Of a stretch of 64,000 bases of DNA, positions 1,497 through 64,000 are shown one piece after another. The notes below the pieces were generated by a model. It was given only the letters and a program-made list of their open reading frames with translations, was not told where the DNA came from and did no database searches. The stretch is from Larkinella rosea (GTDB lineage Bacteria > Bacteroidota > Bacteroidia > Cytophagales > Spirosomataceae), in contig NZ_RQJO01000016.1 in NCBI RefSeq assembly GCF_003858635.1, positions 1-64,000 of the forward strand. The letters are read 5' to 3'. A program made the position numbers and the translations under genes. Numbering within the stretch: the stretch's first letter is position 1; every line of letters begins with the position of its first letter.

Positions 1497-1588
1497 AATG
1501 ATCCATGTAAAATGCGGAACGTTAACTATAAAAGTGGTGAAAACCGGGCACCTTTACAGTCGACGTTCCGCATTTTACATGGATCATT
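1497..1588 (-). terminator. Very long hairpin terminator after the DoxX-like gene
   Basis: Two perfect 26-bp inverted arms (1497-1522 and 1563-1588) are separated by 40 bases whose ends are also partly complementary. The right arm begins 7 bases after the stop of the DoxX-like gene. Read on the minus strand, the hairpin runs straight into ATTTTTTTTATTTTC, a U-tract. It therefore looks like an intrinsic terminator, though the stem is far longer than termination needs and could be a mobile palindromic element that took on that role. Confidence 0.75.
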
Positions 1589-1594
1589 CCTAAC

Positions 1595-1975
1595 TCACAC
1601 CTGCTCCCGCAAGCTTGTGGTGGTGGGCAGAAAAATCGATTTGTCGCGCAGAAAAGCCGCAATCCAGACCAGCACCAGCACCATTCCGGCGTTCGCCAGC
1701 GGTTTATCGTGTGACAGATCCGTCGCCATCGCTCCGGCGAAGTAACACGACAACAGGATGAACCCCAGCTTCATGGTTTTGGGGTAAATGAACAGGGCCG
1801 CGAACGTAATTTCCATGATTCCCAAAACCGGGATATACGGCCCGACACCTGCCTTGGTCAGGCCATCCACCACTTCGTTGCCGCCCATTAATTTCATAAT
1901 GCCACTCAGTATCGTCATACCGCTGGCGATAACCGTAAAAATGACGGTGATAATCTGTTTCGTTTTCGTATTCAT
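1595..1975 (-). CDS. DoxX-like small membrane protein
   Basis: 126 residues, ATG start at 1975. There are four hydrophobic segments, roughly residues 8-27, 45-63, 70-87 and 92-108. The pattern (short N-terminal helix, conserved G/P between helices 1 and 2, four helices in about 120 residues) fits the DoxX/DoxX-like superfamily of inner-membrane proteins, often linked to redox or quinone functions but without a settled reaction. It stands alone between two palindromes (1497-1588 and 2077-2112), so it is probably a single-gene transcript. Confidence 0.7.
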   Translation of the reverse strand: MNTKTKQIITVIFTVIASGMTILSGIMKLMGGNEVVDGLTKAGVGPYIPVLGIMEITFAALFIYPKTMKLGFILLSCYFAGAMATDLSHDKPLANAGMVLVLVWIAAFLRDKSIFLPTTTSLREQV

Positions 1976-2076
1976 GATTGTAATTTGGTTACGTGCAAAA
2001 CACCTCCGGTCATTCGCCGGAAGTGCTGCGTTCTAGTTGCGGTAAAATTACAATCAGTCACTATTCAAAAGATACT

Positions 2077-2112
2077 ACTATCCCAAAGGATACCGGTATC
2101 CTTTGGGATAGT
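2077..2112. terminator. 36-bp perfect palindrome without loop
   Basis: A perfect, spacerless palindrome centred on CC|GG at 2094/2095; each half is ACTATCCCAAAGGATACC. It lies 26 bases after the stop of the DUF5684-like gene and ~100 bases upstream of the DoxX-like gene. There is no strong U-tract on either side, so a terminator role is less clear than for other palindromes here. It could also be a binding site for a dimeric protein. Confidence 0.55.
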
Positions 2113-2138
2113 GGCTAAAAATGACCGGTTTTAATGAC

Positions 2139-2534
2139 TCAAACCGCTGGCTGAGCAGGACGTTGGAAGGTGGCTTTTCCCCAGGCCAGTTGCGGGTAAA
2201 AGATGAAGGGCAAAAATAATAGTCCGACCGTGAAGCCCTCGGTTTTCCCAAACCGCTTTGCCAGTAAATTGGCAACCCAAACCAGCATCACAATGTTGAC
2301 GTACGGAATCAGCATCAACAACAGCCACCACCAGGGTTTATCGACAATGCGCAGCAACGTCAGGGTGTTATAAATTGGAACGATAGCGGCCCAACCCGGT
2401 TCGCCGGCTTTCTCGAAGGTTTTCCAGAGGGCGGTGATGAGCACTCCACTGATCAGCAGGGCACCGGCGCAGACCATCAGGAATCCGATTTGCGCGACGT
2501 TATTAGCGGCACTTACCAAAATAACAGCATTCAT
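2139..2534 (-). CDS. DUF5684-like membrane protein
   Basis: 131 residues, ATG at 2534. Three to four hydrophobic segments: about 14-35, 68-90 and 100-118. The loop FEKAGEPGWAAIVPIYN, followed by a Trp-rich segment (KPWWWLLLMLIPYVNIV), is characteristic of the DUF5684 (small Trp/Pro membrane) family as I remember it. Function unknown. The gene lies directly downstream of the Ser/Thr kinase gene (36-base gap, same strand), so the two may be co-transcribed. Confidence 0.7.
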   Translation of the reverse strand: MNAVILVSAANNVAQIGFLMVCAGALLISGVLITALWKTFEKAGEPGWAAIVPIYNTLTLLRIVDKPWWWLLLMLIPYVNIVMLVWVANLLAKRFGKTEGFTVGLLFLPFIFYPQLAWGKATFQRPAQPAV

Positions 2535-2569
2535 AATTTCGACTCGGTTAATGGTTGATTGATACCTAA

Positions 2570-4498
2570 TTAGCTCAAACGGAACGAGCGGACAATGTGC
2601 AGCAGATCGGTTTCGAAATCCGACTGGTTGGATTTTAGCGTCCAGGCAAAAACCTGGTAATACTTGTCCGACGACTTGTAAAAACCGTTGATGCAGTACA
2701 GCGGAATGCTTTTTCCGTTTTTCACGTAATCGACATCGCGGATGATGTACTGCATTCCTTCATCGGTGGAACCTACGTCGGACTGGCTGCGGGTCCGAAA
2801 GGTTTCACTGTTGATCGTCGTGTAGTTCCGGTATTGATCGAGATTATAGATTTTATTAGCCTCGACATCCGCTACCCGTTCGGTAAAAACCACCAGATAC
2901 AACTCCTGGCCGGGATTCGAATACTGAACTTCCGCACCGTCGCGCAGGTTGGTGACCGACTGCATGGAACGCGGCACTTCGACGGTAAAATCCTGTCCTT
3001 TCACCAGTTGCGTACTCACAAACCCGCCAAAAACCGGTTTTTCAGGACCTGAGCTCGATTCGTTTGGGTTCGGCTCAGCATTGTAGCTTCCATAACCGGA
3101 GTCGCTATTGGAGGAAAACACACCGTTCGAAACCATACTCAGCAACAGCAATCCGAACAGAATCAAGCCAATGCCGACGGCCACCACGATGTAGGCCTGC
3201 CGCAACGCACCGGACGAAGGAAGCACCGGCGGTATTGGGAAATACGCATCTTTTCGCAGAGGGGCCGGGCCGGGCAAAGGTACCGGTGCGGGTAAGACTA
3301 CGGGCGGAGGAGGAACAGGCATTGGACGGGCCTCCTGACGGGGTTGACCGGGCTGCACCAACTGGTACGTATCTCCGTTGACCAGGATACGCGATGCCTG
3401 TCCCTGTTTTCGAACCAGCGCTTTTTTATCTTCAATGTCGGTGATCGAATCGAACTCGACGGGTACCACCAGCGTTCCGGCGGTATTGACCAGGCCCCAG
3501 CGGGGGCCGATCCGAACGGCGGCATAGCCTTCGCTGAACGAACGTTGTTCGTCGTAGGCAGTGACAACTGGTGGTAAAATAACGGGCGGCTCAATCGGTT
3601 CCGGTTCCAAAGGCGAAAGGATTCGTAACAGCGTCTCGGCTTTCTGAACCCGCTGATCGATGTCGTGTACCAGACATTGCCGGATTACGGTTTGGTACGG
3701 TTCCGGAATCCGGTCGAACTGCGCCGGAATGGCAACCTCGTTGATTCGCTGGATGATCTGGATTCGTTCGGTTTCTGAACCGGCTTCGCTGTCGGCAATG
3801 AACGGTTTTTTGCCGGTCATCAGTTCGTACAGAATCACCCCGAAAGCCCACAGATCGACGTTGAAATGCATCCGGCCATTCTTCAACTGCTCCGGTGCCA
3901 TGTAGTAAACCGAACCCGCGATGGTCGAATTCAGGAAGGCCATCGACATCACCAGATTGTCGTCGGGCCGGACAATCTTGCTCAGCCCAAAATCCGTAAT
4001 TAGCGGCACGTACTTGCCGTAGGGCGTGCGGGCAACCAGAATATTCTGCGGTTTCAGGTCGCGGTGGGCCATCTGGTGGCGGTGTAAATGCGCCAAACCG
4101 CTCAGGATTCCGGTAATGATATCGTCCTTTTCGGACTGCGTCAGCGTCTTGTTCAGGAGCAGCTCGGCCAGATTGCCTTCTTTGTAGTATTTCAATACGG
4201 CCATGTCGACAACCCCAAAGACGGTCGTAAACCGCTCGCAGACTTCGTAGCGGGCGATGTTGGCGTGCCGGGGAATCTGGTTGGCGAGTTCGACCTCCCG
4301 CTTGAGCGACAGATCGCGCTGCTCGGTCCGGACATTCGAAACCTTGATGGCCACCCACTGATTCTCGATGGTGTCCCAGCCTTTGAAAACCGAACCAAAA
4401 CCGCCTTCACCAAGGCGTCCGAAATCTTCGTCGTTTTCCGGCGAACTAAGCTTGCCGGGTTCGTAATGGTAGCGGTTGCGGAATTCTTCGTACGTCAT
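2570..4498 (-). CDS. Membrane Ser/Thr protein kinase with WG repeat and outside domain
   Basis: 642 residues from the ATG at 4498 (MTYEEF); an upstream in-frame extension lacks support. The kinase domain spans about residues 25-295 with all key elements: glycine loop GEGGFGSV (30-37), Lys52 in VAIKV, HRDLKPQN with catalytic Asp147, and DFG at 169-171. A WG-repeat-like stretch (about 312-350) follows, then a proline-rich linker (385-425), one membrane helix (about 435-456) and an extracytoplasmic C-terminal domain of ~145 residues. It should phosphorylate cytoplasmic Ser/Thr targets in response to a signal sensed outside. The substrate is unknown. No phosphatase gene is adjacent. Confidence 0.9.
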   Translation of the reverse strand: MTYEEFRNRYHYEPGKLSSPENDEDFGRLGEGGFGSVFKGWDTIENQWVAIKVSNVRTEQRDLSLKREVELANQIPRHANIARYEVCERFTTVFGVVDMAVLKYYKEGNLAELLLNKTLTQSEKDDIITGILSGLAHLHRHQMAHRDLKPQNILVARTPYGKYVPLITDFGLSKIVRPDDNLVMSMAFLNSTIAGSVYYMAPEQLKNGRMHFNVDLWAFGVILYELMTGKKPFIADSEAGSETERIQIIQRINEVAIPAQFDRIPEPYQTVIRQCLVHDIDQRVQKAETLLRILSPLEPEPIEPPVILPPVVTAYDEQRSFSEGYAAVRIGPRWGLVNTAGTLVVPVEFDSITDIEDKKALVRKQGQASRILVNGDTYQLVQPGQPRQEARPMPVPPPPVVLPAPVPLPGPAPLRKDAYFPIPPVLPSSGALRQAYIVVAVGIGLILFGLLLLSMVSNGVFSSNSDSGYGSYNAEPNPNESSSGPEKPVFGGFVSTQLVKGQDFTVEVPRSMQSVTNLRDGAEVQYSNPGQELYLVVFTERVADVEANKIYNLDQYRNYTTINSETFRTRSQSDVGSTDEGMQYIIRDVDYVKNGKSIPLYCINGFYKSSDKYYQVFAWTLKSNQSDFETDLLHIVRSFRLS

Positions 4499-4704
4499 GG
4501 GAATAGGTTTTTTAAGAAATATACAGGCTGAAAAGCACAGGCTTTCCACCCGCTTAATTCTTTATCCGGGTAAGGGGTAAAGCGTCAGTGGTTCAACGCA
4601 AAAAAAAATCGAAACGAGAGGATAATATACTGTTAATCAGTCAAAAGAACTGACTGAAATGGCAAGAAATTTTGTCGTTGAGCGTGGAAACGTTACGCTA
4701 CTCT

Positions 4705-6591
4705 TCAGGGAAACATTTGCCGGACTTCGTTCCGTAAGGTTTCGGGGTCCCAGCCGTCTTCGACGTCTTTCAGCCAGCGGTCTTTTTCGTCCGAACTGAG
4801 CAGTTCTTCCAGCTCCCGAATGCGTTGCCGGGCACTGCTGAAGTACTGTTTCCGATCGTGCCGGAGCGCGGCCAGTTCGCCCATGTTCCGTTCGTCGTGT
4901 TTCAGAAACAGGCGGGCGGCCCGCTGCGACTGATAGGCCCGGTAGCCCAGCAGCGTCATCGCATCGACGCCCATCCGGAGTGAACTGTCGATGGTTTCGC
5001 GGTAAATGTGCGTGATACCGGCCTCCATAAATTCGTAGGAATCGTCGCGGTCGACGGCTTTTACCAATATTTTCAGATGCGGGAAATGCTTTTTGACGGT
5101 TTCGACCAGATCGAGCGATTTTTCCGGCGAATCCAGCGCAATAATCATCAGTTTAGCATCCGCAGCACCAGCCGATTCCAGTAAATCATACCGGGACGCA
5201 TCGCCGTAATACACTTTCATGCCCAGTTTTCGCAAAATATCGACCCGGTCCGAATCAAAATCCAACACCGTCGTCCCGATGTTATTCGCCCGTAAAAACC
5301 GCCCGACGATGTTACCGTACCGACCAAAACCGGCGACGATCACCGCGTTTTTTTCCTCAATGGCATCCTGCTCTTTTTCTTCGGTTTCTTTCGTACCGAT
5401 TCGCGGTAACAACAGTTTCTCGTTGGCCAGAAAAACGAGCGGGGTCAGGCCCATGCTGATGGCCACGACTGCCGTCATCATATCCACTATTTCCTTCGAC
5501 AAAATACCGTTCTGCGAAGCGAATGAAAAGAGCACAAACGCAAACTCGCCCACCTGACAAAGGCCCAGCGCAAACAGCAGATTCTGATCGGTTTTTAGTT
5601 TAAATATTTTCCCTAAAACCGCTAATACCACCGCTTTAGCCATCATCACGGCGATCACGATTCCGACGACCAGCAGCGGTTTTTCGAGGATCAGGTCAAA
5701 ATTGATGGCGGCTCCCACCGAGATAAAAAACAACCCGAGCAACAAGCCTTTGAACGGGTCGATGTCGCTTTCCAGCTCATGCTTGTACTCACTGTTGGCC
5801 AGCACTACACCCGCAACGAACGCACCCAGCGCCGGGCTCAAACCCACCATTTCCATCAGCACCGAAATGCTCACCACCATCAGCAGGGCCGTGGCAATAA
5901 ATACTTCCCGCAAACCGGTTTGGGCGATAATCCGAAAAACCGGTCCCATCACATACCGCCCCACCAATACCAGACCGACCACCGCGCCCACCACCGCAAA
6001 CGGCCGCAGCCAGCCGGGCAGGCTGTCGATCAGTGCCGCATGGGCGTGGTGATCGGCCGCCGAAGCGACCGGGTAAGTAGCCAGCAGCGGCATAATGGCC
6101 AGAATCGGAATCACGGCAATGTCCTGAAACAGCAAAACCGCAAAGGTATTCTGCCCGGCCGCCGTTGCCATAAGCCCTTTTTCATTCAGCGTTTGCAGCA
6201 CAATGGCCGTCGACGACATCGCCAGAATCATGCCCAGCGCCAGCGACGGCTGCCACGGCAAACCGGTCGTCAGGGCAAGGCCGCCGGTCAGCACCGCCGT
6301 GAGCAGCACCTGCAAACCGCCCATGCCCAACACCGGCATGCGCAGTTTCCAGAGCCGCTCGGGTTCGAGCTCCAGCCCGACCAGAAACAGCATGATGATG
6401 ACGCCGAATTCGGCAAAATGCATAATATCGTGACTTTCTTTGCCGACTAAGCCTAAAACCGCAGGGCCGATCATGACGCCCGCCAGCAGGTAGCCCAGCA
6501 CCGAGCCCAGCCCCAAGCGTTTGGCAATTGGAACAAAAAAGACCCCGGAAGCTAAATAGACAATGGCCTGAAGAAGTACGGATTGATTCAT
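4705..6591 (-). CDS. KefB/KefC-type cation:proton antiporter (CPA2 family)
   Basis: 628 residues, ATG at 6591. The N-terminal ~385 residues form a Na+/H+ exchanger membrane domain of about 12-13 helices. A Rossmann RCK/TrkA-N domain follows (about 410-530) with the nucleotide-binding pattern GFGRYGNIVGRFL and acidic LDFD at the end of strand two. The charged C-terminal tail is about 100 residues. This is the architecture of the glutathione-gated potassium efflux systems, which acidify the cytoplasm to protect against electrophiles. The gene starts 8 bases after the KefG-like gene on the same strand, the usual Kef ancillary-channel order. Which small thiol gates it here is unknown. Confidence 0.9.
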   Translation of the reverse strand: MNQSVLLQAIVYLASGVFFVPIAKRLGLGSVLGYLLAGVMIGPAVLGLVGKESHDIMHFAEFGVIIMLFLVGLELEPERLWKLRMPVLGMGGLQVLLTAVLTGGLALTTGLPWQPSLALGMILAMSSTAIVLQTLNEKGLMATAAGQNTFAVLLFQDIAVIPILAIMPLLATYPVASAADHHAHAALIDSLPGWLRPFAVVGAVVGLVLVGRYVMGPVFRIIAQTGLREVFIATALLMVVSISVLMEMVGLSPALGAFVAGVVLANSEYKHELESDIDPFKGLLLGLFFISVGAAINFDLILEKPLLVVGIVIAVMMAKAVVLAVLGKIFKLKTDQNLLFALGLCQVGEFAFVLFSFASQNGILSKEIVDMMTAVVAISMGLTPLVFLANEKLLLPRIGTKETEEKEQDAIEEKNAVIVAGFGRYGNIVGRFLRANNIGTTVLDFDSDRVDILRKLGMKVYYGDASRYDLLESAGAADAKLMIIALDSPEKSLDLVETVKKHFPHLKILVKAVDRDDSYEFMEAGITHIYRETIDSSLRMGVDAMTLLGYRAYQSQRAARLFLKHDERNMGELAALRHDRKQYFSSARQRIRELEELLSSDEKDRWLKDVEDGWDPETLRNEVRQMFP

Positions 6592-6599
6592 AAGGTCGG

Positions 6600-7190
6600 T
6601 TAATCGATAATAAATTCGTTCATATACTGACGCGTTCGGGCGTCTTCGATGTCGATCTGATCGGTGGTCAGCATCGTCAGCAGGCTTTTATACTGGCTCG
6701 CATATTGCCGCATTTCCGGCTCGGTCAGCCGGTGGGTTCCGTGGATGGCAAAGGGCGGCAGGTAGATCATTTTACACAAAAAAGCCGTCTGATCGAACGG
6801 AGCGAGAAACTGCCGCAGCGTAAAGCGGTTATAGCCTTCTTCCTCATAGGCTCTCCGGGGGCCGCCGGTCGTAATCACGTTCAGCATTTTTTTGCCAACC
6901 AGCGCATTTCCTTCCCGCCCGTAAGCCCAGCCGTGTTCCAGCACCAGATCCTGCCACTGTTTCACCATCGCGGGCGAGCTGTACCAGTAAAACGGGTGAT
7001 GCAGAATGATGATATCGTGAGCCAGCAACAACTCCTGTTCGCGGTCGACGTCGATGTCAAAATCCGGGTATTCTTCATAGAGGTCATTCACCGTGACCCC
7101 CTCGACCGACTGACAGGCTTTCAGCAAAAGCCGGTTGGTTCTGGATTTTTCTAAGGCAGGATGCGCAAAAAGAATAAGTACAGATGACAT
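6600..7190 (-). CDS. KefF/KefG-like flavodoxin-fold NAD(P)H oxidoreductase
   Basis: 196 residues, ATG at 7190. Family features: N-terminal VLILFAHPALEKSRTNRLLL (FMN phosphate loop), HHPFYWYSSPAMVKQW and TTGGPRRAY. In E. coli such proteins bind the Kef channel as activating subunits and have quinone reductase activity. The 8-base gap to the antiporter gene supports the same partnership here. Length is typical of the family. The true quinone substrate cannot be read from the sequence. Confidence 0.9.
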   Translation of the reverse strand: MSSVLILFAHPALEKSRTNRLLLKACQSVEGVTVNDLYEEYPDFDIDVDREQELLLAHDIIILHHPFYWYSSPAMVKQWQDLVLEHGWAYGREGNALVGKKMLNVITTGGPRRAYEEEGYNRFTLRQFLAPFDQTAFLCKMIYLPPFAIHGTHRLTEPEMRQYASQYKSLLTMLTTDQIDIEDARTRQYMNEFIID

Positions 7191-7263
7191 ACTTTACGGG
7201 AATTCATTCCTACAGACGAATAACCGGCTGGTAAATCCATCCCGCACGGTTTGCCTGTATGAT

Positions 7264-7271
7264 CAAATTTA
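7264..7271 (-). promoter_or_regulatory. Possible -7 element for the kefG-kefB pair
   Basis: The minus strand reads TAAATTTG, an exact match to TAnnTTTG, 74 bases before the start at 7190. No clear -33 TTG is seen at the right spacing. The 7191-7515 gap holds this element and another exact match facing the opposite way, and no gene. Confidence 0.35.
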
Positions 7272-7466
7272 AGCCATTTCTGAGGAAATAAAAACCGGGG
7301 GTGTTCGTCGATCCCATTCGCAAAGCCGCTATGTCGTCGCCGGTTGAGAATTTATTGCCTTTATCAACGCTTTATTTTGCTGATTTTTTAAAGCCGCCGA
7401 CGGGGTCTTCGACCGCTGTCAGGGCTTAAATAGGGAAAAAAGCCCGGGGATCAGAACTTCTTTGGC

Positions 7467-7515: not shown

Positions 7516-8544
7516 ATGTACGACGTGATTATCATTGGTGGGGGGCCGTGCGGTTTGGCGGCCGGAATCGAAGCATCCAAAGCGGGGTTAAGTCATTTGA
7601 TTCTGGAAAAAGGCAGCCTAACGGAGTCGATCCGACGGTATCCGAAAATGATGCGGTTTTTTTCGACGGCCGAAAACATCGAGATTGGCGGCATTCCGTT
7701 TCCGATTGCGGGCGTCAAAGCCAACCGGACCGAAGCCCTGCAGTATTACCGCAAGGTAGCCGGTTATTATAAGCTGAATTTCAAGCTGTTCACGGAAGTA
7801 AAACACGTTACACGCTACCAGTCATCCGACGAGGAGGAAGCCGAACCCAAAGAGCTGTTTACGGTTTTTACCACCAACGATAAAACCTATCAGGCCCGTA
7901 AAATCATTCTGGCAACGGGTTATTTCGACAAACCCCGCTGGCTGAACATACCGGGCGAAGATTTGCCGCACGTCACCCATTATTACGACGAACCGTTTCC
8001 GTATTCATTCACGAACGTCGTTATCGTCGGAGCGTCGAACTCGGCGGTGGAAGCGGCTCTGGAACTATACCGCGCCGATGCCCACGTGACGATTGTGCAC
8101 CGCGCCGACGATTTTCGGAAAACCGTCAAATACTGGCTGGTGCCGGACGTCAAAAACCGGGTGAAAGAAGGAAAAATTCACACCCGGTTCAGCACCTGCG
8201 TGACGCGCATCGAACCGGGGAAAGTTTGCACCACCAACCTGCAAACGGGCGAAGAAAGCGAACTCCCCGCCGACTTTGTGTTGATTCTGACCGGTTATAT
8301 TCCCGACGCCGACTTACTGAAAGAATGCGGTGTGACGCTGAATCCCGAAACCCAGGTGCCGACCTACGACAAGGAAACCTTCGAAACCAACGTGCCGGGT
8401 TTATACGTTTGCGGGACGGTCATGGCGGGCATTTACACCGAAAAAGTGTTCATCGAAAACGGCCGCGACCACGCGAAAGCCATCATCGACCACATCACCG
8501 GAAAACCGGTGCGGAAGGTAGCGGAGTTGATTGAGCGGATTTGA
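7516..8544 (+). CDS. ypdA: YpdA family putative bacillithiol disulfide reductase
   Basis: 342 residues, ATG at 7516. The N-terminal FAD-binding motif is GGGPCGLAAG (about 8-17). A second dinucleotide motif, VGASNSAVEAAL (about residues 173-184), would bind NADPH. A C-terminal VCGTVMAG and the full length fit the YpdA group, FAD proteins that reduce bacillithiol disulfide. The cysteine in GGGPCG is typical of this group. The gene is divergent from the Kef pair, so thiol redox control and electrophile defence sit side by side. Bacillithiol biosynthesis genes are not in the window, so the substrate is inferred from the family. Confidence 0.88.
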   Translation: MYDVIIIGGGPCGLAAGIEASKAGLSHLILEKGSLTESIRRYPKMMRFFSTAENIEIGGIPFPIAGVKANRTEALQYYRKVAGYYKLNFKLFTEVKHVTRYQSSDEEEAEPKELFTVFTTNDKTYQARKIILATGYFDKPRWLNIPGEDLPHVTHYYDEPFPYSFTNVVIVGASNSAVEAALELYRADAHVTIVHRADDFRKTVKYWLVPDVKNRVKEGKIHTRFSTCVTRIEPGKVCTTNLQTGEESELPADFVLILTGYIPDADLLKECGVTLNPETQVPTYDKETFETNVPGLYVCGTVMAGIYTEKVFIENGRDHAKAIIDHITGKPVRKVAELIERI

Positions 8545-10867: not shown

Positions 10868-13273
10868 ATGAAAACCAGGCTGCTTTTTTGCTTCATCCTT
10901 TTCACTTCTTTTTCCTTTGCCCAAACCCCTGCACCCGTTGCCCCCAATCGCATCGGCGAACCGTCCCGCTGGCAAACCGATTTCTGGAAAGCGCAGTGGA
11001 TTGGCCACCCGACGGCACCAATTCGGGCTTATGGCGTGTATCATTTCCGCAAGAGTTTTGAGCTGGCGCAAAAACCGGGTCGCTTCGTGATCAACGTTTC
11101 CGGCGATAACCGCTACCGGCTGTTTGTCAATGGCAAAGCCGTGGTTTCCGGCCCGGCCCGCAGCGATCTCCAAAACTGGAATTACGAAACCGTCGATATT
11201 GCGCCCTACCTGAATGCCGGCAAAAATACCCTGGCCGCCGTGGTGACCTACATGGCCGAATACGCGCCGTTTGCGCAGATGAACTACCAGTTTGGGTTTA
11301 TCGTGCAGGGCGAAGGCGACGCCGAACAGGTGGTCAATACCAATAATACCTGGAAAATTCTTCAGAATCCGGCCTATTCGCCGGTGATCAACGACATTCC
11401 GAAACTGCGGACGTACATCGTCATCGGCGCGGGCGACCGGGTCGATGCGGCTAAATATCCCTGGGGCTGGGAAGCAACCACCTTCGACGACGCCGGTTGG
11501 TTGCCCGCAAAACCGGTCGGCTGGCCCGCAAAACCGCGCGGTTTGGGAACCGACGGCAACTGGAATCTGGTGCCGCGCACCATCCCGCTGATGGAAGAAA
11601 CTCCGCTCCGGCTCACGACCGTTCGGCGGGCCGAAGGCGTCGATGTAGACGATGATTTTTTACAGGGGAAAAACGCCTTTACCGTTCACCGCAACCACAA
11701 AGCTGTTATCCTGCTCGATCAGGGTTACCTGACCAATGCGTATCCGGAACTGACCGTCAGCCGGGGCAAAGATGCCGTCATCACGCTGGCCTACGCCGAA
11801 GCCATGATGGACGAAAAGCGGCAGAAAGGAAACCGCAACCAGGTGGAAGGCAAGCAATTATACGGCTTTGAGGATCAGTTCATCGGCGACGGCAGCAAGC
11901 AGAAACGCACCTTCCGGCCGTTGCTGTTCCGCACCTACCGGTACGTACAAATCACCATTGAAACCAAAGGCGAACCGCTGGAAATCCACGACCTGATTGG
12001 CCATTTTACGGGTTATCCGTTTCAGGAAAAAGCCCGGTTTGCCAGCAGCGACGAAAGCCTGAAGAACATCTGGGCCGTCGGCTGGCGGACGGCGCGGCTT
12101 TGCGCCGGGGAAACCTATTACGATTGTCCATATTACGAACAGTTTCAGTATACCGGCGACACCCGCATTCAGTCGTTCATTTCGCTCTACGTGACGGGCG
12201 ACGACCGGCTGATGCGGAAAGCCATCGCGGATTTCGACCACAGTCGCTTCAACGACGGTCTGACGCAAAGCCGCTACCCGAGTGCTGATTTTCAGGTCAT
12301 TCCGCCGTTTTCACTCTATTGGGTCAGCATGGTTTACGATTACTGGATGCACCGCAAAGACGATAAATTCGTGGAATCCATGATGCCCGGTATTGTCAGT
12401 GTGCTGGACTGGCACGAAAAACGGCTGGCGACCAACGGCCTGAACGGCCCACTGGAATGGTGGAATTTCGTCGACTGGTCGAAGTGGGACGCCCCGGAGG
12501 AAGGCATGGGCGGAGTACCGAAAGGTGCGCGGAAAGGCGGTTCGGCCATTCTGACGTTGCAACAGGCCTACACCATGCAGCGGATTTCGCAACTGTTTTA
12601 TCACTACGGTAAAAACCAGCAGGCCGAACATTACCGCCTGGTGGGCATCCGGCTGGCGAAAAATGTCTACGACCGCTGCTGGGACGCGGGCCGGGGGTTG
12701 ATGGCCGACACGCCCGACAAAACCGGTTTCAGCCAGCACGCCAACATCTGGGCCATTCTGACCGACGCCGTGCCGGTGGCGCAGCAAAAGGTCTTGATGC
12801 AGAAAATCATGAGCGATCCCAGTTTGATTCAGGCGACGTTTTACTTCAAATTCTACCTGTTTCAGGCGCTGAAAAAAACTGGGATGGCCGATCAGTTCTT
12901 GCCGATGCTGAAACCCTGGCACGACATGCTGGCGCTGGGCCTGACGACTTTCGCCGAAAACCCCGAACCGACCCGCTCCGACTGCCATGCCTGGAGTGCC
13001 GCCCCGAATTACGAATTTCTGTCGACGGTTTGCGGCATCAATCCCGCTTCACCCGGTTTTGAAACGGTCGTCATTACGCCCTACCTCGGCAATCTGCAAT
13101 TTGCGGAAGGCGCCATGCCGCACCCGGCGGGAGAGATTGCCGTGCGGTTCGACAAAACCCCCACCGGCGGATTAAAAGGCACCATTACGCTGCCCGAAGG
13201 CCTGACCGGAACGCTGAAATGGAAAGGAAAAACCGTTGCGTTGAAGGAAGGGCAGCAGGCGGTTAGTTTGTGA
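10868..13273 (+). CDS. Alpha-L-rhamnosidase (GH78-like), exported
   Basis: 801 residues, ATG at 10868. Signal peptide to about residue 19 (MKTRLLFCFILFTSFSFAQ). N-terminal beta-sandwich domains contain FWKAQWIGHP and a jelly-roll (NRYRLFVNGKAV). The (alpha/alpha)6 barrel has CPYYEQFQYTGDTRIQ and the acidic EWWNFVDWSKWD region, and a C-terminal beta-sandwich follows. These are the marks of GH78-type rhamnosidases, which remove terminal alpha-L-rhamnose from plant or bacterial glycans. There is no T9SS tail, so a periplasmic location is likely. Its end overlaps the convergent membrane gene by 11 bases. The 10592-10867 gap upstream is shared with the divergent kinase and shows no clear promoter. 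Confidence 0.88.
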   Translation: MKTRLLFCFILFTSFSFAQTPAPVAPNRIGEPSRWQTDFWKAQWIGHPTAPIRAYGVYHFRKSFELAQKPGRFVINVSGDNRYRLFVNGKAVVSGPARSDLQNWNYETVDIAPYLNAGKNTLAAVVTYMAEYAPFAQMNYQFGFIVQGEGDAEQVVNTNNTWKILQNPAYSPVINDIPKLRTYIVIGAGDRVDAAKYPWGWEATTFDDAGWLPAKPVGWPAKPRGLGTDGNWNLVPRTIPLMEETPLRLTTVRRAEGVDVDDDFLQGKNAFTVHRNHKAVILLDQGYLTNAYPELTVSRGKDAVITLAYAEAMMDEKRQKGNRNQVEGKQLYGFEDQFIGDGSKQKRTFRPLLFRTYRYVQITIETKGEPLEIHDLIGHFTGYPFQEKARFASSDESLKNIWAVGWRTARLCAGETYYDCPYYEQFQYTGDTRIQSFISLYVTGDDRLMRKAIADFDHSRFNDGLTQSRYPSADFQVIPPFSLYWVSMVYDYWMHRKDDKFVESMMPGIVSVLDWHEKRLATNGLNGPLEWWNFVDWSKWDAPEEGMGGVPKGARKGGSAILTLQQAYTMQRISQLFYHYGKNQQAEHYRLVGIRLAKNVYDRCWDAGRGLMADTPDKTGFSQHANIWAILTDAVPVAQQKVLMQKIMSDPSLIQATFYFKFYLFQALKKTGMADQFLPMLKPWHDMLALGLTTFAENPEPTRSDCHAWSAAPNYEFLSTVCGINPASPGFETVVITPYLGNLQFAEGAMPHPAGEIAVRFDKTPTGGLKGTITLPEGLTGTLKWKGKTVALKEGQQAVSL

Positions 13274-27730: not shown

Positions 27731-27794
27731 ATCCGGTTTTAAAGAAAAAGCCGTCAGGAGATTGCTCCTGACGGCTTTTTCTTTAAAACCGGAT
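27731..27794. terminator. Bidirectional terminator with perfect 30-bp stem
   Basis: Perfect 30-bp arms (27731-27760 and 27765-27794) around a 4-base ATTG loop. The stem contains GCCGTCAGGAG flanked by AAAAAG/CTTTTT runs, so both strands have a GC hairpin followed by a U-tract. It lies between the convergent peptidase and outer-membrane protein genes. The outermost part of the stem contains AAAACCGG. Confidence 0.92.
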
Positions 27795-38150: not shown

Positions 38151-39059
38151 TTGAATAATACAAACGAGCCCCTGCATCTAAAAACCGAACGATTTCGTTT
38201 TGCCGGTTCTTCGGAAAACGGTTCCTTTTCCATTTCCGATTTCCCCACCAAAATCGACGATCTCTACGAAAACAAGGAGCACTACGAAACCCTGCTCGCC
38301 AGCCTGACCACCGAACTCAACGAGTTGCAGGAGAAAATGTACGCTCACAACCGCTACGGTTTGGTTACGATTTTTCAGGCCATGGATGCTGCCGGAAAAG
38401 ACAGCACCATTCAGCACGTCTTTTCGGGTGTCAATCCGCTCGGTTTGCGGGTTCATTCGTTCAAACGGCCCACCGACCAGGAGCTCGATCACGATTTTCT
38501 CTGGCGCAATCTCATCAAACTGCCCGAACGCGGCACCATCGGTATTTTCAACCGCTCCTATTACGAAGAGGTGTTGGTGGTGAAAGTGCATCCCGAAATC
38601 CTGACCAAAACCCAGCGTCTACCCGACGAACGCACCGCCGACCTTGACAAAGTCTGGAAACAACGCTACAAGGACATCGGCAATTTCGAAACATACCTGA
38701 ACCGCAACGGTTTTCCGGTGTTGAAGTTTTTCCTGAACGTCTCGAAAAAAGAACAGGCCGACCGGCTCATCGACCGCATCGAAGACCCGTCGAAAAACTG
38801 GAAATTCGACGATCAGGACGTCGTGGAACGCGGTTTCTGGAACCAGTACATGCAGGCCTACGAAGACGCCATCAACGCAACCGCCAGCAAAAAAGCGCCC
38901 TGGTACGTCATTCCGGCCGACGACAAGAAAAACATGCGGCTGATTGTGGCCAAAATTCTGGTCGAAGAACTGAAAACCCTGAAAATCGAGTACCCGAAGG
39001 TGAACAAACGGCAACAGAAAAGTTTGCAGGATTTACTTGAAGTAATCAAAAAAGAATAA
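38151..39059 (+). CDS. Polyphosphate kinase 2 family protein
   Basis: 302 residues; the start is TTG at 38151, as no ATG precedes the conserved domain. Walker A is FQAMDAAGKDSTIQ. The lid and Walker B region has GIFNRSYYEEVLVV. KFFLNVSKKEQADRLIDR and WYVIPADDKKNMRL follow. PPK2 enzymes phosphorylate nucleotides with polyphosphate. Length and the single domain fit the class that can act on AMP/ADP, but class assignment needs alignment. A hairpin follows the stop. Confidence 0.9.
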   Translation: MNNTNEPLHLKTERFRFAGSSENGSFSISDFPTKIDDLYENKEHYETLLASLTTELNELQEKMYAHNRYGLVTIFQAMDAAGKDSTIQHVFSGVNPLGLRVHSFKRPTDQELDHDFLWRNLIKLPERGTIGIFNRSYYEEVLVVKVHPEILTKTQRLPDERTADLDKVWKQRYKDIGNFETYLNRNGFPVLKFFLNVSKKEQADRLIDRIEDPSKNWKFDDQDVVERGFWNQYMQAYEDAINATASKKAPWYVIPADDKKNMRLIVAKILVEELKTLKIEYPKVNKRQQKSLQDLLEVIKKE

Positions 39060-39060: not shown

Positions 39061-39090
39061 CGGGAGCGGTTTTCGTCAAAACCGCTCCCG
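39061..39090. terminator. Hairpin after the PPK2 gene
   Basis: Perfect 13-bp arms CGGGAGCGGTTTT / AAAACCGCTCCCG around CGTC, starting 2 bases after the stop. The stem itself contains two copies of the over-represented AAAACCG word. Confidence 0.75.
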
Positions 39091-39195: not shown

Positions 39196-41268
39196 TTGAA
39201 ATCTACTTCTACGGTTTGGCTACTCACCGGTTTTTTGCTGATGAATCGGGTGGCCGCTGCGCAGGAATACCGCCGGCAGGAAACCAACCTCAGCGCATTC
39301 ATCCAGAATCTATTTCCGGTTCAGACCGAGGGCATTGATTACCAGGCGGTTTCCGAGAATCTGTACCAACTCTACGCCAATCCGCTCGACCTCAACACCG
39401 CCACCCGCGACGAACTTTCGGCCACCTACCTGCTGACCGAACGCCAGCTCAACAGCCTGTTTAACTACCGCACGACCTTCGGTCCTTTTCTGTCGATTTA
39501 TGAACTCCAGGCCGTCCCGGATTTCGACCTGCCAACCATCCGCCGACTGCTCCCGTTTGTAACCGTCGACGCCCAAAACCGCACCCTTTCGGTCCGCAAC
39601 CCAACCGATCATTACCTGATCCTGCGCGTCGAACGTGTGCTGGAACCGCAAAAAGGATTCACTCCGGGCGAACCCGACAAAAATGGCAATTCGCCCCGGC
39701 GCTACGACGGCAGCCGGCAGCAATGGTATGTCCGGTATCGCTACAGCCGCCCGCGCGCCTTCAGTTTCGGTCTGACGCTGGAACAGGACCCCGGCGAGCC
39801 GCTGCGCTGGAAACCGGGGAGTTATCAGTACGGGATCGACTACATTTCGTTTCACGCCCAGATCCAGAACCGGGGTCGCTGGCGGAACGTCCTGCTGGGT
39901 GATTACCAACTGCAAATTGGTCAGGGACTGGTGTTGGCGTCCGGTTTTTCGCTGGGCAAAGGAACCGAAACCGTCGCGGGCATTCGCCGACCGTCGCTGG
40001 GCGGACGTCCGTATTCTTCCCTGAGTGAATACGGTTTTCTGCGCGGATTGACCGCGACGTATGCCCTTAGCAAAAACTGGGACATTACCCTCCTGGCCGC
40101 CCGCAACCGACGCGATGGAAATGTAGTAATCGATACTGAAAATCAGGAAGATAAAATCAGTTCATTGCAAACCAGCGGCCTCCACCGAACCACTGCCGAA
40201 CTCGCCGACCGCGCCAGTTTGCGGGAACAGAATCTGGGCCTGCATGTGCTCTACCATACCGACCAGCGGCTGCAACTGGGCGCGACGGTTTTGCATACGG
40301 TTTTCGACAAAACCCTGCAAAAACGTGATTTGCCCTACAATCGGTACGAATTTACGGGAAAACAAAATACCGTTCTGGGTCTGCACGGCAGTTATATCTA
40401 TCAGAATATCAACCTTTTCGGGGAAGCGGCCCGTTCGTCCAGTGGCGGAATCGGCGCCGTTGGGGGTGCCGTTGCCAGCCTGACCAAACGCCTGGATGCG
40501 GCTTTTCTGGGGCGGTATTACGCCCGGAATTTCCACAGTTTTTACGCCAACGCTTTCGGCGAAAACACGCGCAACAGCAACGAGCGCGGCATTTATACCG
40601 GTTTACGCTACGTGATTTACCGCAAACTGACACTGGGCACTTTTGTTGATTATTACCGGTTTCCGTGGTGGAAATACCTGGTCGATAACCCGTCGCAGGG
40701 GTACGATTACCTGCTGCAAGCCACCTGGTCGCCCACCAAAAAATGGTCGGTTTACGGGATTTACCACGAAGAACACAAGGAAAAAAACCTGCCGACGGCG
40801 CTCAGCAAAACCAAACAAACCGTTAAAACCGTTCGGAAAAACTACGCGCTCAACGCCGAATACAACCCTTCGCGCGTGTGGTCGTTCCGGACCCGGATTC
40901 AGTGGGGCGGTTTTCGATACACCGGTTTTTCGCCCTCCAGAGGAATAGCGATTGTGCAGGACGCCACGGCGGATTTCGGGCGATTGTCCCTCAGCGGGCG
41001 GCTGGCGTGGTTCAGTACCGCGGATTACGACAGCCGACAGTACGTTTACGAGCGGGATGTGTTATCGACGTTTTCGATTCCGGCCTACGCCAACCGGGGC
41101 ATCCGCAATTACCTGCTGGTTCAGTATACCTTAAACAAGCACCTGGACGTCTGGTTGCGCTGGAGCCGCACCGATTTCCGGAAACAGGAAACCGTCGGTT
41201 CCGATCTGGACGAAATCACCAAACCGCACAAGAGCGAGGTGAAAGTGCAGGTGCGGTGGCGGTTTTGA
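39196..41268 (+). CDS. Exported helix-hairpin-helix / beta-barrel protein
   Basis: 690 residues; the start is TTG at 39196, directly before a good signal peptide (KSTSTVWLLTGFLLMNRVAAAQ). The N-terminal part carries a ComEA-like helix-hairpin-helix region (NPLDLNTATRDELSATYLL...FNYRTTFGPFLSIYELQ), usually a DNA-binding motif. The remaining ~550 residues are beta-strands ending in KVQVRWRF, typical of an outer-membrane barrel. The combination suggests a surface protein that could bind DNA, or a barrel with a repurposed HhH domain. It precedes uvsE (convergent, 9-base gap). Confidence 0.8.
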   Translation: MKSTSTVWLLTGFLLMNRVAAAQEYRRQETNLSAFIQNLFPVQTEGIDYQAVSENLYQLYANPLDLNTATRDELSATYLLTERQLNSLFNYRTTFGPFLSIYELQAVPDFDLPTIRRLLPFVTVDAQNRTLSVRNPTDHYLILRVERVLEPQKGFTPGEPDKNGNSPRRYDGSRQQWYVRYRYSRPRAFSFGLTLEQDPGEPLRWKPGSYQYGIDYISFHAQIQNRGRWRNVLLGDYQLQIGQGLVLASGFSLGKGTETVAGIRRPSLGGRPYSSLSEYGFLRGLTATYALSKNWDITLLAARNRRDGNVVIDTENQEDKISSLQTSGLHRTTAELADRASLREQNLGLHVLYHTDQRLQLGATVLHTVFDKTLQKRDLPYNRYEFTGKQNTVLGLHGSYIYQNINLFGEAARSSSGGIGAVGGAVASLTKRLDAAFLGRYYARNFHSFYANAFGENTRNSNERGIYTGLRYVIYRKLTLGTFVDYYRFPWWKYLVDNPSQGYDYLLQATWSPTKKWSVYGIYHEEHKEKNLPTALSKTKQTVKTVRKNYALNAEYNPSRVWSFRTRIQWGGFRYTGFSPSRGIAIVQDATADFGRLSLSGRLAWFSTADYDSRQYVYERDVLSTFSIPAYANRGIRNYLLVQYTLNKHLDVWLRWSRTDFRKQETVGSDLDEITKPHKSEVKVQVRWRF

Positions 41269-42238: not shown

Positions 42239-42266
42239 GCCTGCGGTTTTTGCAAAAACCGCAGGC
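42239..42266 (-). terminator. 28-bp palindrome at the DUF4249 stop
   Basis: A perfect spacerless palindrome centred at 42252/42253 with CGGTTTTTGCAAAAACCG at its core. It starts at the first base beyond the DUF4249 reading frame, sharing one base of its stop. It again contains the AAAACCG word in both halves. Confidence 0.65.
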
Positions 42267-60700: not shown

Positions 60701-61758
60701 TCGTTGGCGAAAACGCCGACCGATTGCCCGTTTTTTTCGTCCCAGAACAGCGTGGACGTTACGACCCGCTCGGCGGGCCAGGGTTCAAAAATCCCGACTT
60801 CGAAGGGTATTTTTCCGGCTTCACCGTCGGGCATGATGCCGTGGTGGTAATTCAGTTTCGTCTGGTCGATGGTTTCCCAATTGAACCGCCCAAAACCGGG
60901 GCTGGCACCGTAGGTTTGCTGCTGCGGGCTGGAACCGGCCGTTGTGACGGTACCGGGTCGGCCAAAGGGGTGGTTCGGAGCCTGCCGGTGCGTGGGCTGA
61001 AATTGCGTCCAGTCGAGCCGCCAATAGACCGAGTCCTCCGGTTTGAAACCGCTCATCTCTTCCCGGATTTCCACAAAATCGGACTCCTGAATGCACTTCA
61101 CCGTGGCCAGATACGAGGCTCCGTTGGCAAAGCGGTAAGTAATTCGGTACGTTACGAAAAGCGGCCCGACCGCCAGTTTTTCCGTTTCGATCTTCTGGAT
61201 TTTCCGGGTTCCGGTTGCCAGCGCCGATTGCCCCATCGCCGGCTTGCCCGACTGAAAAAGCTGCATCACCGGCCCCGGAACCGGCCCGGAAGCGGGCAAC
61301 GAAGCCGGAATCCGAACGCTGAGTTTATCCGTCCGAATCAGAATCGTTTCACCTTCCTTCGTTTCGCTCAATGGGATTGATTGAACCGGTTTGCCGCGGG
61401 TTAACACAAAGGTTCGGGTTCCGCCGGATGGCAGGTCGCTGAACAGACTCAGGGTGACCAGCGTTTTTCCGTCCGGCGATTTCCGAAACTCCGAAAACTG
61501 GAACGGTACGGTTTTCCCGGATTCTTTTTCGACCAGACTAAAGTCTTTTGGATCGACCGGCTGATCGAACTGAACCGGGTAATTCAGCAGCGTTCGGGGC
61601 CACCAGTAAAATGGATGCCGCAGGTGGTCTTTCAGGACAAAAACCGCCTGTCCGTTTTCAAAACGAACCGGCGGAGTGGTCGCAAAAGTGGCCGAAAACG
61701 GAATCAGAAGCAGGCCGACCCATAACCAGCTCTTCGACTTGCGTGTCAGGTACTTCAC
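57742..61758 (-). CDS. Large exported protein with Fn3 domains, unrecognised; possible polysaccharide lyase-like
   Basis: 1338 residues; the start is GTG at 61758 followed by a signal peptide (about 1-26). N-terminal beta-rich region (residues ~30-440), a helical middle (around ADEEYMPMRYMLSGHPNFLADV and NSWDALGGRWTENLGTYVWG) that could be an alpha/alpha toroid, then a beta-sandwich with GGIYFYAGGKSYSHNGRED and ITYDDVYNNNIGGRFSWF, like the C-terminal part of heparinase-type lyases. Two Fn3-like domains end the protein. There is no T9SS tail. Context (HTCS gene, SGNH esterase) points to polysaccharide breakdown. I cannot name the family with confidence. Confidence 0.6.
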   Translation of the reverse strand: MKYLTRKSKSWLWVGLLLIPFSATFATTPPVRFENGQAVFVLKDHLRHPFYWWPRTLLNYPVQFDQPVDPKDFSLVEKESGKTVPFQFSEFRKSPDGKTLVTLSLFSDLPSGGTRTFVLTRGKPVQSIPLSETKEGETILIRTDKLSVRIPASLPASGPVPGPVMQLFQSGKPAMGQSALATGTRKIQKIETEKLAVGPLFVTYRITYRFANGASYLATVKCIQESDFVEIREEMSGFKPEDSVYWRLDWTQFQPTHRQAPNHPFGRPGTVTTAGSSPQQQTYGASPGFGRFNWETIDQTKLNYHHGIMPDGEAGKIPFEVGIFEPWPAERVVTSTLFWDEKNGQSVGVFANDLANWNDSDYSIWHSSKILNIRFFYRKKLLSWAFPISEGRRSVALSCYPHQQDIEYMNELETKNQPQPHPFGFTYKAEISQLSHNAFLQNRYGTIHLDKVKNWQLTYPDSLPTAPVLFKEGKLKTRADFVRDFLGNYYVSELPFSGTRQNSGYGPVPARQFFEKWIDALNRFYPSLNPDEKARVTAMFLFHTYVAADEEYMPMRYMLSGHPNFLADVKSIPAMTAYQFPNHPEAVHWADLFEKYVDLNTRYHTRPTVNSWDALGGRWTENLGTYVWGFFRSTIRSSFLLNQSQPGKNRLAGPQVAAIGNWILNALSAPYNGESLDFYRNPNGSLDYHFWGIVTKTEEPRRIHPPQGAHAARRKAPSSLWMLGNLLNNYDPLLGEHLRYVAKPTDDDQEAFYASNEAFQQVMYPKGRYDRGTKPDFKSIKMTGYGTILRAGVDTPDELSVHLSQIDEGPNYRWGVPAQGGTGGIYFYAGGKSYSHNGREDVGDRKVQDTDLMTNFGVFKDGHFKSIGMNGLHRPLYNLGIGQFTEITSSEKSGYAWPDYQSRSVMLVDKDYFITYDDVYNNNIGGRFSWFTHPDEDLPTIEIVKVGTGRDKVNKTQLTGAESKGVWYDGLGDFTVFVSHKKGFTVEPTAYGGRIKTPVGQTDYIFRSDQTVDVQEDQLRFSGTAGFIRVHPTGEQDLVLFHGQRIGNGKILLSTSDTDAGISASVKNKDWVDGKFFSPRPATIAVQWNGPASPGLTLYIDGTKQQVEWKSSGFSIPFPAGEHSWQLTAGLPVPVRPHIQSSENDRGKVNLFIAPAAGATNYRMEISRDNGETWRALGKTAKTAFTVLKPDTLSKAHVRVTALNREHQSEPSQAYPVYFLTQKPHFPDGLKADLATGILNWGQVLGCTTYKLYRKLAGSSKFQVIYTGPSSTFHDPALAGKQVYEYAVSAVNKNGESRLSDAVTTNPESWLHWNPKPGEPFRRTNTQHSTTEEVYYPK

Positions 61759-61800
61759 TTTTAAAACAGGGTTTAGGAATAATCAGCCGCTTGCACGGCA

Positions 61801-64000
61801 TTACTTCACCAGTTCGCCCACGAGCAACACCGAGTTGACAAACCAGCCGTTTCCGGCGTAATTGTCCGGATTCGTAATTGTAATGTTCTTTTTCTTCATG
61901 ATTTCGGCTTTGTCGAACGGTTTTCCGCTTACCCGAAACGTCGCTTCGTGTTCGCCGTCGGACAGGTCTTTCAGGAAAAAAGTGTTCTTCCGGTAATTGT
62001 TGCACCACTGATCGAAGCGGTAGACTTCCACCGGCGGTTTGCCGTCCACAACCACCTCGACGATACCGGTTTTGGGGCCAATCACGTCGTAAACGCCAAA
62101 CGTGTTTCCCCGGAATTTCACCGTAAATGATGCATCCGGCGGGTTTGCAGCGGATAATTCCGGCATGAATTGGCCGAATTTCTGCCGCAACTCGTTCGTT
62201 TCGGGCAAAACGTCCCACGAACCAGTTCGGCGCAGCTTCGACAACGGAATCAGTTGGGCCGATTCCCAATTACCCTTCTCCAGAGCCGCAGGCAGCGGGT
62301 GCGGTTTTTGCCCGGCATTGTCCTCCAGTTTTTTCATAAACTGAATAACCGAATGGGCGTAAATCGGATGCCCGGATAGCGGAAGCGGGTGGGTTTTGTC
62401 CGACGTAAAAACCACCTTGTCAGGATGTTCGCCCGGATTTCCGGTAAAAATCAGTTGCCCGGTTTCCAGCAACCGAATCACTTCCACGCCCATGTGAATT
62501 GACGGAATCCGGTAATGATCGGCCACCTGTTCCATCGCAATAGCCGAATGCTGGTACTGGCCTTTGCGCATCGTTTCCACCACGTTTTCGGCGATGGTAT
62601 ACACAAAGCAAATATCCGCCAAGGGGTATTGTTTCCAGGTTTTCCGGACAATTCCCTCGATGGTTTTTCGGATTTCTCCCTCCGTTCGCCCGTAATCGTT
62701 GACGGCAAATTCGACAAACACCAGATCGGGCCGGTGGCTCAGCACGTCCTGCTCCATCCGGAAAACGCCGAGGTCCGAACCGGTGCCGCCGATGGTCGCG
62801 TCGATCTGCCGGAACGGTGTGAGCGGGTAATTGGCCCGAAACCAGTTGAACGTCAGATCCCGCCAGCCGTCCTTAGCCTCGGTGATACTGCCGCCGATGT
62901 AGGCAATCCGCACGTCCTGTCCCGATTGGATTTTCCGGAAAAAATTCGGCAAACCGCCCCGTTCGTGGGATTCGGCCAGGCCACCTTTCTTCTCCCGCCT
63001 GATTTGCGGGAGGACCCCGGTCCAGTCGACCTGAATCGCTGACGGGCCGGTCTGAATGGCCAGCAGACTGTTGTCCATTCGGATGGCGGGGCTTTCGATC
63101 ATCGGCCACTGTTCGCAGGACGTTTCCGGTTTGCCATTGATCCAGACCGCCGGAACCGACCGCGCCAGGCCGTCGGCATCTACCGGCAAGCCCGGCTGGT
63201 ATTGCATCCGGATTTTGGCGCCCTGGGTCGTCTGGTACGTCAGATCCATCGTGTTCCAGTTCACCGAAACCGGGTTGCGGGGCAGTTGGCTCACAAATTT
63301 TTTAAAACTCCCGAATTCGGCCTCCGTCCCGAGTTCAAAGATAAAACCGGTTTGCGGACCTTCGCTTTTGACGACGTTGAATCCTTCCAGCCCTTTTTCG
63401 GTCAGATTGGTGTGCATCGAATACGGTTTCAGCGGTTTGATGCCGACGTACGTTTTTCCTTCCCGCAGAAAAATCCAGCCGCCGGTTTCCACTTTTTCGT
63501 CGATTGATTTGGGATACCGCAACGCGCCCCATTTCAGCAAATTAGTGGCGTGCCCGTCGCGCCAGGCCCATTTTTCCGGGCTCGGCTGGTTCGGCCAGGG
63601 GTCTTTCTGCGGAATGTCAAAGAGCATGATGGCGGCATTCCGGTAATGCGCCGTCTGCTGAAAGGGCGAGATCGTGCCTTTGTGCCAGGTGTCGGGCGTG
63701 CGGTCTTTGTGGTCGCCGTCGCTGTACCAGTAGGGATGGAAGCAGTTCAGGTAATTGAACCGGTCGGGGCTGCTCCAGACGATGTTGAACCCGTTGGCGT
63801 CGTGGTCGGCGTAATCGCCCCCCGGCACCCACCGGAAATTCCCGCTGCCAATCGCGTATTGCTGCGCCCGGTATCCATTCCGCATCATCATGTGCGGGCG
63901 GGCCCGCTCCCCGGCATAGGGTCCGAAGGTCGAAGCCGATGATTTCAGCGCGTACGGGACGCCCCTGCCTTCGGCCAACTGAAAGAAAACCGCATCCGGA
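61801..64000 (-). CDS. Lyase-like / SGNH esterase fusion, 5' end outside window
   Basis: The frame is open to the window edge, so at least 732 codons; the start is not in view. The N-terminal ~330 visible residues (YWYSDGDHKDRTPDTWHKG, GWIFLREGKTYVGIKPL, VPAVWINGKPETSCEQWP) look like the beta part of a heparinase- or alginate-lyase-type enzyme. An SGNH esterase domain follows with RIAYIGGSITEAKDGW (nucleophile Ser), EFAVNDYGRTEG and the Asp/His pair in TSDKTHPLPLSGH. A C-terminal jelly-roll of CE2-type (KFRGNTFGVYDVIGPKTG) ends it. It probably de-esterifies and possibly cuts an acidic glycan. Confidence 0.75.
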   Translation of the reverse strand, partial: PDAVFFQLAEGRGVPYALKSSASTFGPYAGERARPHMMMRNGYRAQQYAIGSGNFRWVPGGDYADHDANGFNIVWSSPDRFNYLNCFHPYWYSDGDHKDRTPDTWHKGTISPFQQTAHYRNAAIMLFDIPQKDPWPNQPSPEKWAWRDGHATNLLKWGALRYPKSIDEKVETGGWIFLREGKTYVGIKPLKPYSMHTNLTEKGLEGFNVVKSEGPQTGFIFELGTEAEFGSFKKFVSQLPRNPVSVNWNTMDLTYQTTQGAKIRMQYQPGLPVDADGLARSVPAVWINGKPETSCEQWPMIESPAIRMDNSLLAIQTGPSAIQVDWTGVLPQIRREKKGGLAESHERGGLPNFFRKIQSGQDVRIAYIGGSITEAKDGWRDLTFNWFRANYPLTPFRQIDATIGGTGSDLGVFRMEQDVLSHRPDLVFVEFAVNDYGRTEGEIRKTIEGIVRKTWKQYPLADICFVYTIAENVVETMRKGQYQHSAIAMEQVADHYRIPSIHMGVEVIRLLETGQLIFTGNPGEHPDKVVFTSDKTHPLPLSGHPIYAHSVIQFMKKLEDNAGQKPHPLPAALEKGNWESAQLIPLSKLRRTGSWDVLPETNELRQKFGQFMPELSAANPPDASFTVKFRGNTFGVYDVIGPKTGIVEVVVDGKPPVEVYRFDQWCNNYRKNTFFLKDLSDGEHEATFRVSGKPFDKAEIMKKKNITITNPDNYAGNGWFVNSVLLVGELVK

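Follow-up and report, generated by a model that had tools for sequence, protein, structure and literature searches.

A 64,000-bp stretch of the Larkinella rosea genome (Bacteroidota, Spirosomataceae; contig NZ_RQJO01000016.1, positions 1 to 64,000), hereafter the window, has a GC content of 52.3% and wholly contains 41 called genes. Genes and intergenic DNA alike carry a single short word, AAAACCG, with its reverse complement CGGTTTT. This word field extends over positions 1 to 64,000, with 114 forward and 86 reverse copies. The total of 200 compares with 27.5 expected under a dinucleotide model and makes AAAACCG the top 7-mer by that measure. In a maximal-order Markov model of the window, the core of the signal is AACCG/AAACCG, and the seventh letter adds nothing. 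The genome to which the window belongs (8,174,678 bp in 18 contigs) is referred to as G000; in the family and phylum sets compared below, G-numbers denote genomes and g-numbers denote genera. Genome-wide, G000 holds 9,738 and 9,806 copies in the two orientations (19,544 together), while the reversed word reaches 1,501 and 1,483 (2,984). The resulting density is 2,390 per Mb, or about one copy per 400 letters.

The original prediction, made from the letters of the window, held that the word is massively over-represented and that its density persists to the window's end. Both statements stand, as successive 8-kb segments contain 21, 28, 13, 23, 22, 32, 32 and 29 copies. Its counts by eye for positions 1501-4560 (about 17 AAACCG/CGGTTT and about 8 AAAACCG/CGGTTTT) captured the excess but were low, the actual numbers being 20 and 10. 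The accompanying chance values of 1.5 and 0.4 presumed equal base frequencies; the dinucleotide expectation scaled to the same interval is about 3.8 and 1.3. Literature searches, including one for the letters AAAACCG, returned nothing relevant among the matches listed, which is not proof of absence from print; on DNA uptake, the papers listed concern Neisseria and Pasteurellaceae.

Reading frames, strands and flanking bases

The contribution of coding was assessed with a codon null, in which synonymous codons are permuted within each gene, using 500 shuffles for the 41 window genes. These genes contain 165 copies, against a shuffle mean of 43.7 (standard deviation 5.4; highest of the 500 shuffles, 64). 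By codon frame, AAAACCG occurs 34, 17 and 21 times against shuffle means of 16.3, 6.0 and 7.1, and CGGTTTT 23, 36 and 34 times against 4.7, 4.7 and 5.1. All six frame and orientation classes lie above their own highest shuffle. The three forward frames are exemplified on the plus strand by positions 8153-8159 (read as K-N-R), 11509-11515 (K-P-V, followed by GGT) and 12719-12725 (K-T-G, overlapping a CGGTTT). An additional 29 complete sites lie in the 7,664 non-coding bases of the window. A cause in codon usage or protein sequence is rejected by the enrichment in all six frames and in non-coding DNA, in agreement with the earlier claim that the word occupies all three forward frames and both strands and is unlikely to arise at the protein level. 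The shuffle comparison proposed with that claim gave neither a shuffle-level frequency nor confinement to a single frame.

The same pattern extends to a 537-kb sample of G000, in which 355 genes were called with the author's simple hexamer model. Under the codon null, AAACCG reaches 1,970 copies against 751 expected and AAAACCG 973 against 280, each ranking first among words of its length. In 69.7 kb of intergenic DNA from this sample, AAAACCG occurs 162 times, whereas an order-2 Markov model predicts 42. Density is alike inside genes (973 copies in 465 kb, 2.09/kb) and outside them (2.32/kb). Within genes, 530 copies are antisense and 443 sense, although the codon null expects the reverse (97 and 184). 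Intergenic copies divide almost evenly by orientation, at 51:53 in co-oriented gaps, 19:17 in divergent gaps and 13:9 in convergent gaps. A transcription-linked cause is therefore not favoured, given that the mild antisense excess within genes is accompanied by 51 versus 53 copies between co-oriented genes.

Chi sites and KOPS are short over-represented genome words oriented with replication, and both had been suggested as parallels, together with a check for strand skew. With GC skew as a proxy for the leading strand, copies on the G-rich strand number 728 of 1,419 in G000 (728:691), 117 of 215 in G101 (117:98), 119 of 214 in G103 (119:95) and 104 of 207 in G106 (104:103). G102, a single contig, gives 106:83 in regions of positive skew and 103:96 in regions of negative skew, which is near parity. 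AAAACCG is thus a short over-represented word like Chi or KOPS but differs from them in being close to strand-symmetric, and this parallel is not supported.

Flank preference is confined to positions -2 to +7 and approximates cAAAACCG[GC][TC]. A longer or two-part motif is rejected, as flank information ends at these positions and there is no second half. The word is enriched alike with G or C as the next letter (AAAACCGG, 369 versus 93; AAAACCGC, 302 versus 74.5 under the codon null), and it is not palindromic.

Synonymous loss of the word in Larkinella

Loss of the word was followed in the mutS neighbourhood of all nine Larkinella genomes. An unrooted tree of 20 genes common to all nine separates clades X (G000, G107), Y (G103, G101, G104, G106) and Z (G105, G100, G102), with support of 1.0 for every split. 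Ortholog sets comprised reciprocal best hits only, with 60-70% length cover. Losses and gains were scored at codons where the sister agrees with the outgroup and the amino acid is unchanged, and expectations were derived from codon-specific rates.

Clade Y supplied 90 gene clusters with 37,007 codon columns. There, AAACCG was lost 54 times against 91.9 expected, the strongest conservation among the 981 hexamers for which 8 or more losses were expected. Gains numbered 16 against 10.2. The gain/loss ratio of about 2.7 is near the local excess over the codon null (437 versus 191 in G106). Each of the six positions, together with the base just after them, changes less than expected for most kinds of change, and single-site repair, with one protected letter, is rejected because all six letters are protected. 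The flanks behave neutrally: the three preceding bases together give 44 changes against 41.5, and the two bases beyond the protected one give 38 against 34.7. Similarly, clade X shows 11 losses against 30.1 with outgroup G103 (rank 1 of 71) and 16 against 30.7 with outgroup G101 (rank 2 of 69). Across clades X and Y, AAACCG is destroyed at 0.37-0.59 of the expected synonymous rate. Isolated sites were better retained than clustered ones in clade Y when the cut was set at 100 bp (p 0.016); cuts of 60 and 150 bp did not reproduce this, nor did clade X, and the effect is not claimed.

No protection of AAACCG is seen in clade Z, which has the weakest word (38 losses against 41.6, and 34 against 41.4). 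This clade tends to keep AAGCCG instead, with 5 losses against 14.0 (rank 3 of 263, outgroup G106) and 6 against 11.6 (rank 26 of 265, outgroup G101), and AAAGCCG is just modestly denser in this clade. A property of the letters alone would act in all three clades; since clade Z is unprotected, a lineage-specific reader or repair bias fits better. A lineage-specific process at the DNA level probably maintains AAACCG in Larkinella. The measurement of reduced synonymous loss in two clades of this genus, lacking where the word is weak, is new.

The word, its counterparts and avoided sequences among relatives

In a survey of 181 genomes from 30 genera of the family, the excess is found only in Larkinella. 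All nine genomes of the genus show it, at 0.78-2.39/kb and 3.3-6.5 times the reversed word. The remaining 172 genomes reach at most about 0.63/kb (G044; genome sizes rounded), and among 198 genomes sampled evenly across the phylum the next highest value is about 0.77/kb (G186). Word density also varies within a genome. DNA of imported appearance is poor in the word: among 107 5-kb bins, 9 hold three copies or fewer against 0.67 expected. Three of these bins sit in the first 20 kb of contig C10 of G000. As a side observation, the products encoded by this island (C10:1-20000; GC 45.6%) include a caspase-domain protein, a type VI secretion system immunity protein, a Pycsar effector and a phage tape-measure protein, and its DNA contains 3 CGCCKC sites.

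The protein encoded at 39235-41265 of the window, which has an HHH_3 domain near its start and is 44-95% identical to 16 aligned relatives across the family, served as a query for named loci. It retrieved 25, led by Larkinella terrae (94%), L. knui, L. humicola, Larkinella sp. C7, L. punicea and L. soli. Per 22 kb, the loci of these six carry 68, 35, 49, 50, 50 and 19 copies of AAAACCG, respectively, and the other 19 named loci (two of them shorter) carry 3-12. A link between the word and this helix-hairpin-helix (HhH) protein, raised speculatively for a barrel protein at 39196, is not supported. Homologues also occur in word-poor Spirosoma, Fibrella, Fibrivirga, Lacihabitans and others, so the presence of the protein fails to explain the word.

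Some relatives are filled with a different word. By comparison with the named loci, g27 can be read as Spirosoma and g10 as Fibrisoma. In pooled Spirosoma loci (ten records), the top word is ACGTAGC, with 86 copies against 22. Whole-genome counts are very high in four of the 32 g27 genomes (10,552, 6,259, 5,198 and 4,845 copies). The ACGTAGC-rich Spirosoma genomes are G160, G173, G175 and G149, and the S. profusum locus is rich as well. Two further g27 genomes (2,476 and 2,112) and the two g10 genomes (3,237 and 3,135) have raised counts, and the other 26 g27 genomes hold 853-1,430 copies. At the S. profusum locus, ACGTAGC occurs 36 times in genes against 4.3 expected, and the 2.1 kb of non-coding DNA there adds 6 more; for S. 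endophyticum and S. terrae, 3.6 kb of non-coding DNA holds 2. CAATGCG, which is very abundant in part of g7 (a genus that includes G050, G068 and G026; 5,169 copies in G050 and about 900 in others), was rejected as a further such word. In G026 it falls mostly in some codon frames, with 0.14/kb outside genes, and looks coding-driven.

An opposite signal concerns CGCCKC, that is, CGCCGC and CGCCTC. Genes of the 537-kb sample contain one CGCCGC and no CGCCTC against 428 and 183 expected, and intergenic DNA contains one of each against 19 and 12 (order-2 model). Neither occurs in the 64,000 bp of the window. The whole of G000 holds 16 CGCCGC, three of them at C10:11,656-21,749. Four genera, with 46 genomes between them (g1, 9 genomes; g10, 2; g22, 3; g27, 32), hold CGCCGC at or below 0.02/kb in every genome, whereas genomes of the other 26 genera of the family carry 103 to 11,445 copies. 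New arisals are likewise scarce, with no CGCCGC against 16.3 expected and one CGCCTC against 7.7. Avoided restriction sites (PMC4687349) are a parallel for the CGCCKC signal only, as AAAACCG differs in being enriched. Larkinella thus offers two opposite genome-wide word pressures, AAAACCG up and CGCCKC down, for side-by-side study. In a separate observation, several palindromes are depleted in G000 relative to the codon null (GGATCC 0.25, CCGCGG 0.27, GCCGGC 0.28, CTCGAG 0.28, CTGCAG 0.33), and CAGCTG is near absent in G101, G104 and G106 (1, 0 and 6 copies versus 63-76). Both are as expected of changing restriction systems.

Individual sites in the window include inverted pairs. At 39061-39090, CGGTTTT-CGTC-AAAACCG lies in a 13-pair stem, 7 nt past the stop of the gene at 38151-39059. 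The pair CGGTTTTTGCAAAAACCG at 42244-42261 is intergenic, 4 nt from the 3' end of a gene. The places singled out earlier at 8153, 11509, 12719, 39061 and 42239 carry the word as described; at 27731, CGGTTTT is present, but an AAAACCG partner was not seen in the stretch inspected. Close intergenic pairs number 10 for CGGTTT..AAACCG and 8 for AAACCG..CGGTTT against 3.6 each, and 7 of the 10 former pairs are no more than 200 nt from the 3' end of a gene; one forms the 13-pair stem described above. Direct pairs are raised as well (14 against 7.2), so the excess is not specific to inverted pairs.

Known parallels and possible explanations

The closest parallel is provided by HIP1 and its alternates in cyanobacteria. 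They are palindromic words at 500-2,500 copies per Mb, with patchy replacement among relatives and matching methyltransferases (PMC4390886). An exchangeable specificity protein has been proposed as their reader. The density of AAAACCG in G000 falls within this range. Its occurrence inside and outside genes, its frame independence and the patchy replacement by another word in relatives, here ACGTAGC, give substance to the HIP1 parallel first drawn from the window. HIPs are palindromic, whereas AAAACCG and ACGTAGC are not. Hence, AAAACCG is not classed as a HIP, although its behaviour is HIP-like.

AAAACCG is best regarded, with a probability of about 0.55, as a highly iterated non-palindromic word that a lineage-specific process retains in the Larkinella chromosome, acting at the level of the DNA and not of protein or mRNA. 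Evolution resists losing the word, and some cell machinery, still putative, therefore probably reads it. That reader would be a sequence-specific DNA-binding protein, and a small cost per lost site, or a bias of repair or recombination, could hold the density near one copy per 400-500 bp. More tentatively, by analogy with the cyanobacterial proposal, it may be an exchangeable specificity protein, such as a DNA methyltransferase or a defence or repair protein, since a few Spirosoma species, and not their relatives, are filled with an altogether different word.

Several observations count against this interpretation. One-letter neighbours of the word are enriched too (CAAACCG 2.4-fold, ATAACCG 2.2-fold, AATACCG 2.0-fold), unlike what a sharp recognition site would give. 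AATACCG is raised in all nine Larkinella genomes (3,279-5,934 copies versus 411-828 of its reversed form), so that genomes of the genus differ by shifted word weights and not by a clean switch. A few small, distant Bacteroidota genomes equal Larkinella in the ratio to the reversed word, at lower density (1,196 versus 180 in G220; 1,363 versus 220 in G195). Finally, the codon null is blind to neighbour effects: in 150 kb of Escherichia coli K-12 it gives a top 7-mer, CGCCAGC, at 2.5-fold and a z score of 11.5, compared with 3.6-fold and 26.9 for AAAACCG in 150 kb of G000. For this reason, the enrichment is weighed jointly with the results on synonymous loss and with the comparison among genera.

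Among the alternatives, a mutation or repair bias would mean that the lineage's replication errors and mismatch repair create and spare the word without any function. The somewhat raised gains in clade Y and the grading over one-letter neighbours are consistent with it, and a by-product model of this kind was proposed by Elhai for HIP sequences, as set out in PMC4390886. It accords poorly with the finding that losses are lowered throughout the six letters and across most kinds of change, and that this protection stops abruptly at neutral flanking bases. Nor is there a strongly depleted one-letter source word beside AAAACCG, the lowest being AAGACCG at 0.60. The lack of the effect in clade Z also speaks against it, though a lineage-specific bias could produce that. 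This explanation is unlikely.

A DNA uptake word, favoured by competent cells and spread by recombination, is improbable. Neisseriaceae uptake dialects (PMC3630211) have 10-12 letters, share a core, are read by a pilus protein and reach 5,918 copies in 2.4 Mb in the densest case. Larkinella resembles them in its density, which equals that of the densest known dialect, in the different words of related species and in the word-poor state of imported, island-like DNA. ComEC is present in all 12 genomes searched, but also in 10 of 14 controls. AAAACCG is short, at about 7 letters, and graded, and it shares no core with ACGTAGC. The pilus ATPase family was not found, as the pilT model TIGR01420 matches none of 11 genomes against 13 of 14 controls, the pilin receptor itself not having been searched. 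The suggested uptake parallel is accordingly unlikely for the known pilus-based kind.

To a similarly low degree, the word may serve a nucleoid-associated protein that coats the chromosome through sites composed of an A-run plus CCG. A uniform density across genic and intergenic DNA, a nearly symmetric distribution over the strands and a tolerance of A-to-T changes in the A-run would suit such an architectural protein. However, site-to-site distances in the G000 sample show no visible helical period, and even spacing is absent (coefficient of variation of the gaps 1.16, versus 1.14 for locally matched placement). If the architectural protein is inherited, the switch to ACGTAGC in a few Spirosoma is also difficult to explain. 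A Chi-like recombination signal or nuclease stop, though the word is short, over-represented and lineage-specific, is very improbable, as preference for the G-rich strand is little or none (51 to 56% in four genomes, with G102 near parity).

Maintenance by a lineage-specific process on DNA could belong to a wider scheme, a self-mark system of the Spirosomataceae. A horizontally swapped DNA reader would impose a species-specific non-palindromic word, AAAACCG in Larkinella and ACGTAGC in some Spirosoma, and the chromosome would be selected or driven to fill with it. Incoming DNA would then be known by lacking the word, while CGCCKC would mark foreign DNA by its presence. This conjecture is quite unlikely to hold as a whole.

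It is a long-standing question why the chromosomes of some bacteria are filled with a single short word, as with HIP1 or uptake words. Larkinella brings together close species with a strong or a weak word, in which protection can be measured only if the word is strong, and has relatives in which another word abounds. With such material, the search for the reader gene becomes a comparison of genomes and methylomes.
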